Source of the DNA: an uncultured Alphaproteobacteria bacterium
GTDB taxonomy: Bacteria > Pseudomonadota > Alphaproteobacteria > HIMB59
Direction of reading: 5' to 3'
Assembly: GCA_902616855.1 (NCBI GenBank)
Contig: CACMUL010000009.1
Span: 1 to 41,644 of the forward strand
DNA length: 41,644 nt
Made by a program: the position numbers and the translations under genes. The notes beneath the pieces are model-generated. The model had not been told where the DNA came from. It made no database searches and was given only the letters and a program-made list of their open reading frames with translations. Shown here one piece after another: positions 33,834-37,582 of the stretch (positions are counted from its first letter, which is position 1; the number at the start of each line of letters is the position of its first letter).

Positions 33834-34607
33834 TTAGAAAAATTCTGGAAGAACTGCTTTTTTTATCTTCATTTCATGAAGGAGTATGCAAATTTGTTCA
33901 GAAATTTCAACACTATTTGGCGTATCACTGTGAACACACACTGAATGAATGTTTGTTTTGAGAGTATTCCCATAACGTGAAATAATCCCTTCTTGTATAA
34001 GCATGGCTTTTACATGCTCCTTGGCGCTTCTAGGATCTGTTATCAAAGAGTCATTAATGGAACGAGGTGTTAAAGTAGCATCATCTTCATAAGTGCGATC
34101 TGCAAAAATCTCAAGGGCGGTGGGTATGTTGCAATTCATACCGATTTTAGCAAGTTCACTTAAAGCAGGTGCAAGTAATATCATTGATGGGTAATTTTTT
34201 TTTAAAACATCTACTATTTCACTAGAAAGGTCTTGGTCAACGCATGCCATATTACTCAAAGCTCCATGTAGCTTAACATGTGTTAATGGAAAATTAATAT
34301 TAGAGGCAAGATTATGCATAAACATTAACTGGTCTTTGACAATTTCTTGGATTAATTTTTTGTTCCAATTAATTTTTGTGCGCCCAAAATTATCTCTATC
34401 TAAAAAAGAAATATGCGCACCAACTGAAACACGTTTTGTTTTACAGTAATTTAGTGCTTTAAAAACAACGTCTTCTGACCCCCCATGATATAAACAGGAA
34501 AGATTAGCAGAGCTAATTTTATTTATTAACTGCGCATCAACAGTCTCGAAAAAACTGAGATCTTTTTCTGCGATATCAGAATTTAAATTAATTTTATTCA
34601 AATGCAC
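33834..34607 (-). CDS. pxpA: 5-oxoprolinase subunit A homolog (PxpA, LamB/YcsF family)
   Basis: PxpA hydrolyses 5-oxoproline to glutamate with PxpB/PxpC and ATP. The family blocks are present but altered: NLNSDIAEK for DLNCDLGEG, SCLYHGGSE for ACGFHAGD, VSVGAHISF for VGAHPSF, VKLHGALSN for VKPHGALYN, IFADRTYEDD for FADRGY, TLTPRS, and CVHSDTP for CLHGD. The glycine-rich N-terminal loop is lost. The start has no ATG: GTG at 34605-34607 is favoured, with TTG at 34608-34610 possible. It is divergent from pxpB, which begins 24 nt away. Whether this variant keeps 5-oxoprolinase activity is open. Confidence 0.85.
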   Translation of the reverse strand: MHLNKINLNSDIAEKDLSFFETVDAQLINKISSANLSCLYHGGSEDVVFKALNYCKTKRVSVGAHISFLDRDNFGRTKINWNKKLIQEIVKDQLMFMHNLASNINFPLTHVKLHGALSNMACVDQDLSSEIVDVLKKNYPSMILLAPALSELAKIGMNCNIPTALEIFADRTYEDDATLTPRSINDSLITDPRSAKEHVKAMLIQEGIISRYGNTLKTNIHSVCVHSDTPNSVEISEQICILLHEMKIKKAVLPEFF

Positions 34608-34630
34608 CAAAGTTACATTATGATATTAGC

Positions 34631-35350
34631 GTGTATTTCAAAGGAATAAATTCTTATGGGGATCGGGGTTTAGTCTTAGATTTTGGGAATGAAACCTCAA
34701 AATCTATATCACAGGAGGTAAATGAGACATTTTTAAATATTTCAAACCTTAATCTTCAATCACTAAACATTATTCCTTCCTTCAATAAAATAGTTGTAAT
34801 TTTTGAAAATTCAAAAATTAGAGATCAAAACAAAGACAAAATTAGTATGAAAATGAAAGATACAAACTCTCAAACTAACAAAAAAGTCACTAAAACATGG
34901 GAAATACCGGCATGTTATAATGAAGATTTTGCTTTAGATATAAAGATCATCCAAAAACTACACCAGATTACAAAAGAAGAAGTTATCAATCTTCATTCAT
35001 CAGTTCGTTACTATACATACTATATAGGCTTCATGCCGGGATTTCCATATTTAGGGGATGTTCCCTCCCAATTAATTACACCGCGGTTAGCTACTCCAAG
35101 GGTAAAAATTCCTGCTAGATCCATTGGCATAGCAAAAAACCATACCTGTATATATCCAAAAGTTTCACCTGGAGGTTGGAATATAATTGGACAAATACCA
35201 TTTGATATTTTTGATTTACAAAGTTCTTACCCTTCCCTTTTTCTTCCAGGTGATGAAGTAAAATTTTACTCCGTATCACTTTCAGAGTTTCAAAAAATTA
35301 GAAAATATAATTTTTCATTAAATGAATTGATCAAGGAATACTCGTCATGA
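34631..35350 (+). CDS. pxpB: 5-oxoprolinase subunit B (PxpB, KipI family)
   Basis: This 239-residue protein is the KipI-like half of the PxpBC complex that phosphorylates or activates 5-oxoproline for PxpA. After a beta-rich N-terminal domain (YGDRGLVLDFGNE), the cyclophilin-like C-terminal half shows the family pattern: GFMPGFPYLGDVP, TPRLATPRVKIPARSIGIA, TCIYPKVSPGGWNIIGQIP and LFLPGDEVKF. It starts at GTG 34631. It overlaps pxpC by 4 nt (ATGA). The N-terminal domain is longer in linkers than in E. coli (an inserted lysine-rich stretch near residues 70-90). Confidence 0.93.
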   Translation: MYFKGINSYGDRGLVLDFGNETSKSISQEVNETFLNISNLNLQSLNIIPSFNKIVVIFENSKIRDQNKDKISMKMKDTNSQTNKKVTKTWEIPACYNEDFALDIKIIQKLHQITKEEVINLHSSVRYYTYYIGFMPGFPYLGDVPSQLITPRLATPRVKIPARSIGIAKNHTCIYPKVSPGGWNIIGQIPFDIFDLQSSYPSLFLPGDEVKFYSVSLSEFQKIRKYNFSLNELIKEYSS

Positions 35351-36225
35351 ACTCAATCATAATCACTCGTGCAGGGACTCATTCAACGATTCAAGACTTT
35401 GGAAGATTTCAATATCAGCACTTAGGAGTTTCACCAAGTGGAGCAATGGACCAAAGAATTATTACAGAACTACAAAAAATTATACCCAATCATCAAAATC
35501 AATTTCTAGAATTTGCATATGTGGGACCATCAATAAAAGTAAAAGAAGGATCAGTTAAGATTTGTATTGGCGGTAATTGTAATATGAGTATTCAGAAAAA
35601 TAACAACAGCCAGCTTGAGTGCCAGCCCTATAAAAGTATTAATTTATTTGAGGGCGATGAATTGATTATTCACAATACAATAGACTCAGTATATGGATAC
35701 ATAGCTTTTGAGCATGGACTTGGGTTAGAGCCTTGTCTTAATAGCTACTCTACTGACACAAAAGCAGGAATAGGTTCTATTAATCGAACTCTTAATAACG
35801 AAGATATATTTCACATTAGCAAAGATGTAAGCTCTTGGGATCTTATCTCTATACCAAAACCTGATTTAGAAAAGGTAACCAATTTCAAAGTTTATCCCGG
35901 TCCTCAACTTCAATATTTCTCAGACAATACTCTACAATCTTTTATTAGCGGTGTTTTTACAATAACTAATCAAAGTGATCGAATGGGTATCAGGCTCAAA
36001 GGTGAGAGTCTCATTAGTTCTAAGTCTCATGATATTTTGTCTGAAGGAATATTACCTGGGTCTATTCAAGTGCCAAGTGATGGGCAACCCATTGTATTAA
36101 TGCGGGACATTCCTTGTACTGGCGGGTATCCAAAAATTGCAATTTTAAATGAAATGGATATTTCAAGAATCTCTCAGCTCCCCCCTGAAACCAAAATCAC
36201 CTTCGATTTACAAACAATCTATTAG
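35347..36225 (+). CDS. pxpC: 5-oxoprolinase subunit C (PxpC, KipA family)
   Basis: PxpC is the KipA-like partner of PxpB, homologous to biotin-dependent carboxyltransferase-type AHS2 domains. The 292 residues contain the start motif IITRAGTHSTIQDFGRFQYQ, GVSPSGAMDQ, KICIGGNCNM, YGYIAFEHGLG, VYPGPQL, SDRMGIRLKG and the conserved SEGILPGSIQVPSDGQPIVLM, with CTGGYPKIA. It is coupled to pxpB by a 4-nt overlap. Together with pxpA on the other strand it completes the set for ATP-dependent 5-oxoproline hydrolysis. Confidence 0.94.
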   Translation: MNSIIITRAGTHSTIQDFGRFQYQHLGVSPSGAMDQRIITELQKIIPNHQNQFLEFAYVGPSIKVKEGSVKICIGGNCNMSIQKNNNSQLECQPYKSINLFEGDELIIHNTIDSVYGYIAFEHGLGLEPCLNSYSTDTKAGIGSINRTLNNEDIFHISKDVSSWDLISIPKPDLEKVTNFKVYPGPQLQYFSDNTLQSFISGVFTITNQSDRMGIRLKGESLISSKSHDILSEGILPGSIQVPSDGQPIVLMRDIPCTGGYPKIAILNEMDISRISQLPPETKITFDLQTIY

Positions 36226-36249: not shown

Positions 36250-36987
36250 GTGAAAATCTCAAGTGTTCAAGATCTAATACCAATATCGAAAAATTCGAAT
36301 AGCTCCATGTTATCAAGACATGATGCACTGGAAAAATTCAATTCTTTTAATCCTGCTCTCTATGCAAAAACAAGAAACTTTTTGAATGGACAAATTTCAA
36401 GATTATCAGCCCATATAAAATATGGAATCATCACCAACAAAGAGCTCTATCGATATATTCGAGACAAATATAATTTTGTTGAGAGTGAAAAGTTTATTCA
36501 AGAATTAGCATGGAGAGATTTTTGGAGAAGCTATGCCTACCATCATCCTGATCAACTATGGACAGATGTAGAAGAATATAAAACTGGATTTGAAGCTCAA
36601 GAATATCAAAATAACTTGCCTGAGGATGTTATGTCAGCAACAACACCAACACAGATTATTAATATTTTCATCGAGCAACTCACTAGCACTGGGTACCTTC
36701 ATAACCATGCACGTATGTATTTGGCTTCTTATATTATTCACTTTAGAAGAGTGAAGTGGCAAGCTGGAGCGAAGTTTTTTTTGAGTCATTTACTGGATGG
36801 AGATATTGCAAGTAATAACTTCTCTTGGCAATGGATCGCGAGCACCTTTGCAGGAAAACCCTATATATTTAATTTAGAAAATGTTCACAAATACTGTCAC
36901 AAAAGCATAGATATTATCCCTGAGAAGAATCGAGAAATAGATGGTAGCTACGAAGAAATTAGTTCGAGGCTCTTTCCCAATTTATGA
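36250..36987 (+). CDS. Stand-alone FAD-binding domain of a photolyase/cryptochrome
   Basis: The 245 residues match only the C-terminal helical FAD domain of class I photolyases. SRLSAHIKYGIIT (residues 50-62) matches the FAD-phosphate block, ELAWRDFWRSYAYHHPD the middle, and GYLHNHARMYLASYII with HLLDGDIASNNFSWQW the flavin pocket. This keeps the Asn of the LLDGDxAxNN motif next to the flavin N5 and the Trp of WQW used in electron transfer in E. coli PhrB. No alpha/beta antenna domain precedes it: the protein begins at GTG 36250, 24 nt after pxpC. The next gene, overlapping by 4 nt, looks like the missing domain, so the two probably form one split enzyme. Confidence 0.85.
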   Translation: MKISSVQDLIPISKNSNSSMLSRHDALEKFNSFNPALYAKTRNFLNGQISRLSAHIKYGIITNKELYRYIRDKYNFVESEKFIQELAWRDFWRSYAYHHPDQLWTDVEEYKTGFEAQEYQNNLPEDVMSATTPTQIINIFIEQLTSTGYLHNHARMYLASYIIHFRRVKWQAGAKFFLSHLLDGDIASNNFSWQWIASTFAGKPYIFNLENVHKYCHKSIDIIPEKNREIDGSYEEISSRLFPNL

Positions 36988-37379
36988 ACTTAATTTATTT
37001 ATATGACGAGTTCATGAGAGTGCCAGCCGGTATTGAGGGTAAACCCGTTTATATCTTTGATGATACCTTAACTGAAGGCTATGAGCTTAGTGACAAAATC
37101 ATTGAAAATAGATACTTTTTAGCCAAAGAGGCAGGGGCTGAAATCTATAGAGGTAATACATATGAGATATTGCAAGAAATTCATAACCAAAACACCATAT
37201 CCAAAATTATAACAAAATCTACTTTTAGACCTATTTACCAAAATTTATTTCAAAAATTAGTTGAAAAATATGATTTAGAGCAGTTACCCGATTACTTCTT
37301 ATTGCAGGAGAATTATCTTCATCCAGCAAAAAGATTTTTTCAATATTGGAACAAAATTAAGAAAAATTTAAAATATTAG
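36984..37379 (+). CDS. Photolyase alpha/beta (antenna-like) domain as a separate small protein
   Basis: These 131 residues resemble a shortened N-terminal Rossmann-like domain of DNA photolyases. Strand 1 is LIYLYDEFMRVP, strand 2 PVYIFDD, then the LSDKIIENRYFLAKEAG helix, strand 3 EIYRGNTYEILQEI and strand 4 ISKIITKSTFRPIYQNLF, where photolyases have the RGDPEEVL and AVYANREYEPYE blocks. The end (HPAKRFFQYWNKIKKNL) matches the VFTPFxxxWLK linker that precedes the FAD domain. The gene overlaps the FAD-domain gene by 4 nt (ATGA), and its order is inverted relative to the normal single protein. The chromophore pocket is reduced, so it may not bind an antenna cofactor. Confidence 0.7.
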   Translation: MNLIYLYDEFMRVPAGIEGKPVYIFDDTLTEGYELSDKIIENRYFLAKEAGAEIYRGNTYEILQEIHNQNTISKIITKSTFRPIYQNLFQKLVEKYDLEQLPDYFLLQENYLHPAKRFFQYWNKIKKNLKY

Positions 37380-37381
37380 TC

Positions 37382-37582
37382 ATGGCTGAGAAATGCAAAT
37401 ATTGCGAGGGAGAGTTATCAGTCATGGACAGTGTGTATATTGAGTCTGAAATTCGAACAGCGCCTAAGAAAGTTCAAAATTTAATTAAAAGTCATCATAA
37501 TCTTGTCTGTTACATGTGTTATAAAAAACTAAAAGCTATTAAAGTGATAAATACTGAAGATAAAAATAAAAAATTAAATTAA
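37382..37582 (+). CDS. Small four-cysteine (zinc-ribbon-like) protein, unknown
   Basis: These 66 residues carry CKYC (Cys5, Cys8) and CYMC (Cys43, Cys46), a CxxC-x34-CxxC layout that suggests one structural zinc. A charged, helical middle (SEIRTAPKKVQNLIKSHHN) and a lysine-rich tail surround it. I do not recognise the family. It begins 2 nt after the antenna-domain gene, so it is likely translated with the split photolyase, and its stop shares TTAA with the convergent acyl-CoA synthetase. A role as accessory subunit or nucleic-acid contact for the pair is only a guess. Confidence 0.65.
   Translation: MAEKCKYCEGELSVMDSVYIESEIRTAPKKVQNLIKSHHNLVCYMCYKKLKAIKVINTEDKNKKLN

Follow-up and report, generated by a model that had tools for sequence, protein, structure and literature searches.

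A probable two-chain, FAD-first photolyase in a marine alphaproteobacterial genus, with a four-cysteine protein encoded directly behind it

We consider it probable that the window, which is the whole 41,644-nucleotide stretch of alphaproteobacterial DNA analysed in this study, encodes a two-chain, FAD-first photolyase, and we infer that the two chains form a physical complex. The sequence-only reading of this DNA had proposed a photolyase divided at its domain border and with the two domains in inverted order, and this was confirmed by the match of the first chain to the photolyase FAD domain and by the antenna-type character of the second chain, with the FAD domain first. A two-chain enzyme was also the best reading of the gene distribution: the two genes co-occurred in the sampled genomes, they were unlinked in some of them, and fused homologues were present elsewhere. 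The surprise is not the split itself but its breadth, the pairing of the two genes without linkage, and the strictly linked and highly conserved four-cysteine protein in the host genus.

The features of the locus are given in Table 1, in which the antenna-type protein is named Z, as is its family. The ORF lengths, the stop/start overlap and the short gap behind Z agreed with the earlier description when the ORF list and the sequence were checked, and the FAD gene and the Z gene lie in different reading frames of the ORF list.

Table 1. Features of the photolyase locus and the genes directly upstream (positions in the window)
Feature	Position	Strand	Remarks
pxpB + pxpC-like genes (5-oxoprolinase subunits)	34631..36225	+	directly upstream of the FAD gene, 24-nt gap
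FAD (putative catalytic) subunit gene	36250..36987	+	245 aa, starts with GTG; photolyase FAD domain, no antenna domain
ATGA stop/start overlap of FAD gene and Z gene	36984..36987	+	4 nt
Z gene (antenna-type alpha/beta subunit)	36984..37379	+	131 aa; ATG start overlapping the FAD stop
Four-cysteine (CxxC...CxxC) protein gene	37382..37582	+	66 aa; 2 nt after the Z stop

The host belongs to a genus of marine Alphaproteobacteria with small genomes, in which the named relatives are AG single-cell genomes and one 'Pelagibacteraceae' MAG. Z was found in 41 of the 52 genus genomes (G000–G051), with 62–98% identity to the window's protein outside G000, the window's own genome. In G026 (C7:53744-54138), Z appears to be frameshifted close to its C-terminus, through a sequencing error or a late loss. 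The FAD gene was found in 29 of the 37 genus genomes compared, and the same 29 have Z. The sequence-only reading had asked whether the three genes are always neighbours in other alphaproteobacteria. Within the genus, the same 4-nt junction was present in all 29 genomes with the FAD gene (coordinates, judged by eye), and the 66-aa gene lay behind Z in 39 of the 41 genomes with Z, that is, in all 39 whose contig continues (in G010 and G027, the contig stops in or just behind Z). By eye, the 66-aa gene started 2 nt after the Z stop in 31 genomes and 3 nt after it in 8. The dN/dS ratios were estimated from codon counts with ten sequences per gene, each compared with the window, and the 66-aa protein was represented by its first 63 codons. 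The ratios of the FAD gene and Z were 0.06–0.20 wherever dS was finite; those of the 66-aa gene were at most 0.03 against four near relatives, with one replacement at a dS of 1.6–2.4 in two of them, and 0.12 against the sole far relative with finite dS. Because the same ORF order recurs across the genus and dN/dS is low, chance can be excluded as the origin of the trio.

The 245-aa ORF matched the Pfam HMM PF03441 (FAD_binding_7) at E 3.6e-24 over residues 82–214, in line with the earlier assignment from motifs, and it could be aligned to residues 228–407 of 1owl. Residues E85, W88, N152, M156 and W195, which by alignment we take to be the CPD-lesion contacts of class I enzymes, are all retained, without variation across 14 genus rows. 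Haney et al. list 13 FAD-contact positions; read by eye from the 1owl alignment, the 245-aa protein has the identical residue at nine of them and a substitution at four (I49, F82, Y149 and S188). With the genus FAD profile, FAD subunits scored 463–514 bits and the ordinary photolyases of the genus 69–83 bits; with a broader FAD profile (A5), split FAD subunits outside the genus scored 253–424 bits. By these profile scores, the FAD protein resembles FAD subunits from other phyla more closely than it does ordinary photolyases. Judged from its sequence, it is of the short-photolyase-like (SPL)/Phr4 kind, minus the Fe-S cysteines. One scan of viral contigs gave no relatives of the FAD protein, and 10 matches to it in phage records (29–32% identity) were read as ordinary photolyases and set aside. 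Two more photolyase/cryptochrome genes are present in the same genome, with open frames of 474 aa and 462 aa, the latter running into the contig edge, so the suggestion that a normal one-chain photolyase might be absent did not hold.

The 131-aa protein gave nothing over the cut-off in Pfam and nothing convincing among PDB sequences, and its weak Pfam/NCBIfam matches (DUF3567, BTH_I0359) were far below the cut-offs and were taken as chance. Among 32 aligned members of the Z family (A7), 19 matched PF00875 (DNA_photolyase) at E <= 0.1, the best at 3.8e-5, and 7 matched the universal stress protein family, the best at E 0.0023. The AlphaFold2 model of Z (pLDDT 86, pTM 0.75) showed a confident alpha/beta domain with alternating strands and helices. 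When this model was searched with Foldseek, the first match was a universal stress protein domain, and among the matches listed, 45 of 50 were photolyases or cryptochromes, with TMq up to 0.60 (Thermus photolyase 1iqr) and with no E value under 0.001. The window's Z is only 15–28% identical to Z proteins outside the genus, and, as expected, hhalign found no match between Z and the FAD family. A Z match in G014 (E 0.0096, three stops) was regarded as chance, and second Z matches in G017, G022 and G042 (E 0.0065–0.0099), whose frames resemble flavin monooxygenase by eye, were dropped. The by-eye call of an antenna-type domain was upheld by the PF00875 matches in 19 of the 32 family members, the fold match and the natural FAD-Z fusions, and the fusions settle the matter.

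The co-occurrence of the two proteins was assessed in 289 evenly drawn Alphaproteobacteria and in 146 Cyanobacteria, with thresholds of more than 300 bits for the FAD subunit and E <= 1e-6 for Z. The 300-bit line was chosen after the scores had been seen and lies in a gap from 167 to 329 bits in the Alphaproteobacteria and from 211 to 308 bits in the Cyanobacteria. The FAD subunit and Z were found in the same 9 of the 289 Alphaproteobacteria, adjacent in 9 of 9, and in the same 25 of the 146 Cyanobacteria. Both samples together gave the same 34 of 435 genomes for the two proteins and none with one alone, with profiles that came from adjacent pairs, so that a strongly diverged lone gene could escape, and whose rows include sampled genomes themselves (G000, G167, G244, G360 and G396). 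The two genes were adjacent with FAD first in 23 of the 34 genomes. In the 25 Cyanobacteria, they were within 250 nt in 14, 0.9–1.9 kb apart in 3 (G459, G476, G528), 0.48–4.9 Mb apart on one contig in 4 (0.48–1.9 Mb if circular; G505, G518, G543, G545), and on different contigs in 4 (G502, G526, G555, G581). The FAD match of G496 contains an internal stop. Fifteen Alphaproteobacteria with single frames of 381–469 aa (143–167 bits) and G480 with a frame of 451 aa (211 bits), all without a Z match, were left out of the FAD subunits. This exact co-occurrence in the sampled Alphaproteobacteria and Cyanobacteria is new here.

Named genomes were scanned with a nine-row FAD alignment, and the best 80 of 563 relatives were analysed. 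These came from Cyanobacteria, Chloroflexota, Acidobacteriota, Alphaproteobacteria including SAR116, and others, 6 being of the window's genus, and the split was seen in several phyla. Among these best 80 of 563 loci, searched with a Z profile built partly from those same loci, Z lay directly downstream of FAD in 59 (two cut by contig ends), fused FAD-Z chains were present in 3 (L135, L144 and L145, namely two Methylotenera loci and one Acidobacteria MAG), and no Z was found on either strand of the locus in 18. The order was FAD then Z in 59 of 59 adjacent pairs; 8 of these pairs have a relative frame of 0, with an intervening stop, 19 have +1 and 32 have +2, related loci not being independent. 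Z was present elsewhere in the genome for 15 of the 18 loci without an adjacent Z: it was at least 4.4 kb from FAD in 13, with contig-end distances added, and its distance was blurred by contig ends in the other two (L099 and L138). For example, Westiellopsis prolifica has FAD on a 3.48-Mb contig and Z on a 2.65-Mb contig. For 3 of the 18, Z was not found anywhere in the genome (L126, which lies at a contig end, and L140 and L147, whose FAD frames exceed 400 aa). On Deinococcus plasmids, FAD and Z are fused in strain AJ005 and D. wulumuqiensis and form two CDS with a 4-nt overlap in strain QL22; with their fused and overlapping-pair forms, these plasmids (L202, L203 and L205) are a natural series for gene fission/fusion. 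Single-chain FAD-first proteins of 379–393 aa with a WRW-type motif (L062, L064–L067 and L199–L201) were observed in the sister family and in other Alphaproteobacteria, and they are perhaps NewPHL-like.

The sequence-only reading took the antenna-first order in one chain to be general and the split to be unique, and neither view can be kept, because FAD-first and split forms are in print (Synechococcus phr4/phr5 and NewPHL). The accessible part of PMC3441193 (2012) suggests a heterodimeric photolyase encoded by two clustered genes of Synechococcus. In marine Synechococcus and Cyanobium, phr4/phr5 are adjacent ORFs with inverted domain order according to the available text of Haney et al. (2022; PMC9426592), in which a fused phr6 is also described and the phr4/phr5 product is left open between a frameshifted chain and a heterodimer. 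The same text reports that phr4/phr5 of RS9916 protect E. coli from UV-C, with a difference between light and dark that was not significant, and have little effect in E. coli after UV-B, so these results do not cleanly demonstrate light-driven repair by this type. It also states that Nostoc punctiforme shares the gene complement, and a homology search with the window's FAD protein recovered Nostoc loci in this study. According to the same text, every Phr4 and Phr6 retains four Fe-S cysteines (C169, C254, C257 and C263 in RS9916), on which the (6-4) prediction for Phr4/5 is based.

Like Phr4/Phr5, the window has a FAD domain and a photolyase domain in two adjacent ORFs in inverted order. Phr4 has four Fe-S cysteines, whereas the window's FAD protein has none of them, and the window's protein is not Phr4 in the narrow sense. 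Further differences are the extra four-cysteine gene behind the pair and the alphaproteobacterial host, in a comparison where RS9916 is known by description and not by sequence. The picocyanobacterial phr4/phr5 are spaced by seven base pairs in the available text of PMC9426592, in contrast to the 4-nt overlap of the window; this is probably a lineage trait, and the spacing varies widely in the family. SPLs (Xu et al. 2021, as described in accessible parts of PMC9649867 and PMC9178010) are CPD repair enzymes without the N-terminal alpha/beta domain. The window's FAD protein is likewise a FAD-only photolyase (FAD_binding_7, with no alpha/beta domain in the chain), but the window encodes an alpha/beta domain next door. 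The four Fe-S cysteines are kept by only some SPLs. NewPHL, or Phr7 (Emmerich et al. 2020, in the descriptions available from PMC9426592 and PMC13274461), has the FAD domain first and a small Z-domain second in one chain and, as Phr7, no Fe-S cysteines. The FAD-first order and the missing Fe-S cysteines are common to NewPHL and the window, which in contrast has two ORFs in different frames. NewPHL is described as repairing CPDs in single-stranded DNA. The account of SPLs and NewPHL given here draws on PMC9649867, PMC9178010, PMC9498864 and PMC13274461. Class I CPD photolyases (1owl, 1dnp) share most flavin-contact residues and the presumed lesion-contact residues with the window's FAD domain, but their antenna domain comes first in the same chain, and the window's FAD protein has no N-terminal antenna domain. 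A literature search by titles and abstract openings, with subscription papers and preprints outside its scope, found neither trans-encoded antenna domains beyond picocyanobacteria nor a four-cysteine partner.

The window's FAD protein has a single cysteine (C216), and the four Phr4-type Fe-S cysteines are absent. From the best 80 of 563 named loci, 71 FAD rows were examined for the motif after 9 near-duplicate or cut rows had been dropped. A C-terminal CxxC-x(3-9)-C, like C254/C257/C263 of RS9916 Phr4, was present in 47 of these 71 rows and absent from 24, and it was in none of the genus FAD rows read. The upstream Fe-S cysteine is gone in the genus too and is kept by SAR116 and some others. 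A quick tree was built from 69 rows, with SH-aLRT support only, long branches flagged, and the genome's own photolyase (L001) as the outgroup, whose placement is no test. The window was nested among FAD subunits inside a 20-row set (support 99), of which 16 rows were labelled as or drawn from Alphaproteobacteria. The Fe-S motif is absent throughout this set, and its loss therefore looks old and shared. Six single-chain FAD-first proteins that share the window's order or class (L062, L064, L065 and L199–L201) formed a separate group (support 99).

In the two-chain photolyase, the 245-aa protein would be the catalytic FAD subunit, responsible for photochemistry and DNA lesion binding, and Z would be made as a separate polypeptide, probably through translational coupling at the ATGA overlap. 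Z would dock on the FAD subunit in the way that the antenna domain does in a one-chain photolyase, with a role in light harvesting and/or stability. As far as sequence can tell, a cyclobutane dimer is a likelier substrate than a (6-4) product, given the missing Fe-S cysteines, the retained class I CPD residues and the description of SPLs as CPD enzymes. The cofG gene was found in 0 of 52 genus genomes, with 4 control genomes positive, so a home-made 8-HDF antenna is unlikely; MTHF or a lumazine/flavin would be the expected pigment.

Programmed frameshifting, as considered by Haney et al., could instead join the two ORFs into one FAD-first chain, which would fit the common adjacency with short overlaps and the fused single-chain homologues. 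We regard it as very unlikely, because the frames of the 59 adjacent pairs (best 80 of 563; loci not independent) are spread over 0, +1 and +2, Z is at least 4.4 kb away in 13 of the 18 loci without an adjacent Z in that set, and 8 of the 25 Cyanobacteria have the two genes separated by at least 0.48 Mb or carried on different contigs, all of which speaks for the family and not for the window's own junction. The three relative frames, the unlinked genes and the co-occurrence thus favour two chains over a frameshift product, and the natural fusions favour physical contact between FAD subunit and Z. The description of SPLs as CPD enzymes without an alpha/beta domain (in the accessible part of PMC9649867) also allows the FAD subunit to be a self-sufficient SPL and Z to have a different function, such as that of a nucleotide-binding stress protein, and the first Foldseek match and the 7 of 32 Z rows that match the stress protein family point that way. 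We rate this as unlikely, since FAD and Z were together in 34 of 34 genomes (435 sampled), natural fusions exist, and 45 of 50 among the Foldseek matches listed were photolyases or cryptochromes.

A blue-light sensor of the cryptochrome-like kind would leave repair to the two further photolyase/cryptochrome genes of the genome, beside which repair by this locus may be redundant. This is quite unlikely in our opinion, because the five residues presumed to contact the CPD in class I enzymes are kept and the next-door genes are those of 5-oxoprolinase and acyl-CoA synthetase, with no regulators. A single photolyase gene that broke recently and is now decaying, a possibility already raised by the sequence-only reading, would suit a small genome and the apparent frameshift in G026. 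We give it almost no credence: the pair is present in 41 of 52 genus genomes, the same split and 4-nt overlap recur in all 29 with the FAD gene, dN/dS is low at high or saturated dS, and the split is present in several phyla.

The two-chain photolyase bears on two published questions. For the choice of Haney et al. between a frameshifted chain and a heterodimer, the far-apart genes favour two chains for the family. SPLs have been proposed as antenna-less ancestors of the photolyase family, and the co-occurrence suggests that the alpha/beta domain sits in another gene; the FAD-Z pairing suggests that a trans-encoded alpha/beta domain is the rule for the SPL group. Both questions, the phr4/phr5 product and the antenna-less SPL, are now testable, and an antenna that can be supplied or withheld as its own polypeptide would make it convenient to measure what an antenna contributes.

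The four cysteines of the 66-aa protein are kept in 13 of 13 aligned sequences, and the far group among the rows aligned is only 56–65% identical. No convincing kin outside the genus was found in 150 relatives, 100 phylum genomes and the fetched loci, with plasmids, viral contigs and metagenomes outside the scope. Among the 100 phylum genomes, the window's own genome was the only match, and among the best 80 of 563 named loci, the gene was present in 6, all 6 of the window's genus. Sister-family matches in G085, G100 and G116 (E 0.0018–0.0097) lay in frames of 276–607 aa and were taken as chance, as were the weak Pfam/NCBIfam matches of the protein, which were far below the cut-offs. The family profile gave nothing under E 0.078 against PDB sequences. 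The model has three helices (mean pLDDT 79, with residues 56–66 under 50), and a fold search with it gave no match better than E 2.2. In G023, a genome without the FAD-Z pair, a 61-aa four-cysteine protein that is 33% identical to the window's was seen (L046 5864-6049), together with a 380-aa single-chain FAD-first protein (L063) on another contig.

A four-cysteine gene behind a split photolyase pair is new. Because the gene was met, in the genomes searched, only in the window's genus, it is a later arrival or was lost elsewhere. The 66-aa protein is genetically linked to the pair and probably serves the same enzyme. A three-subunit enzyme may also be imagined for the genus, in which the in-chain Fe-S cysteines were lost and the four-cysteine protein then became an obligate partner giving a metal site (structural or electron-relay) in trans, but we hold this to be rather unlikely.

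Of the genes upstream of the trio, the pxpC-like gene matched its family below the cut-offs, and a pxpA-like gene lies on the minus strand in the same upstream stretch (33834-36225). By eye, pxpB/pxpC-like neighbours were present in 8 of 8 divergent genus loci and a pxpA-like neighbour in 7 of them, the remaining stretch being too short. The pxpB/pxpC-like genes and the photolyase trio are possibly on one transcript, as a candidate only; in promoter and terminator scans around the trio, promoter-like sites were not above shuffles. The pxp genes next to the photolyase trio form a pyroglutamate-salvage cluster. At the other end of the trio, the four-cysteine gene and a convergent acyl-CoA synthetase gene overlap at their ends by 4 nt (37579-37582).
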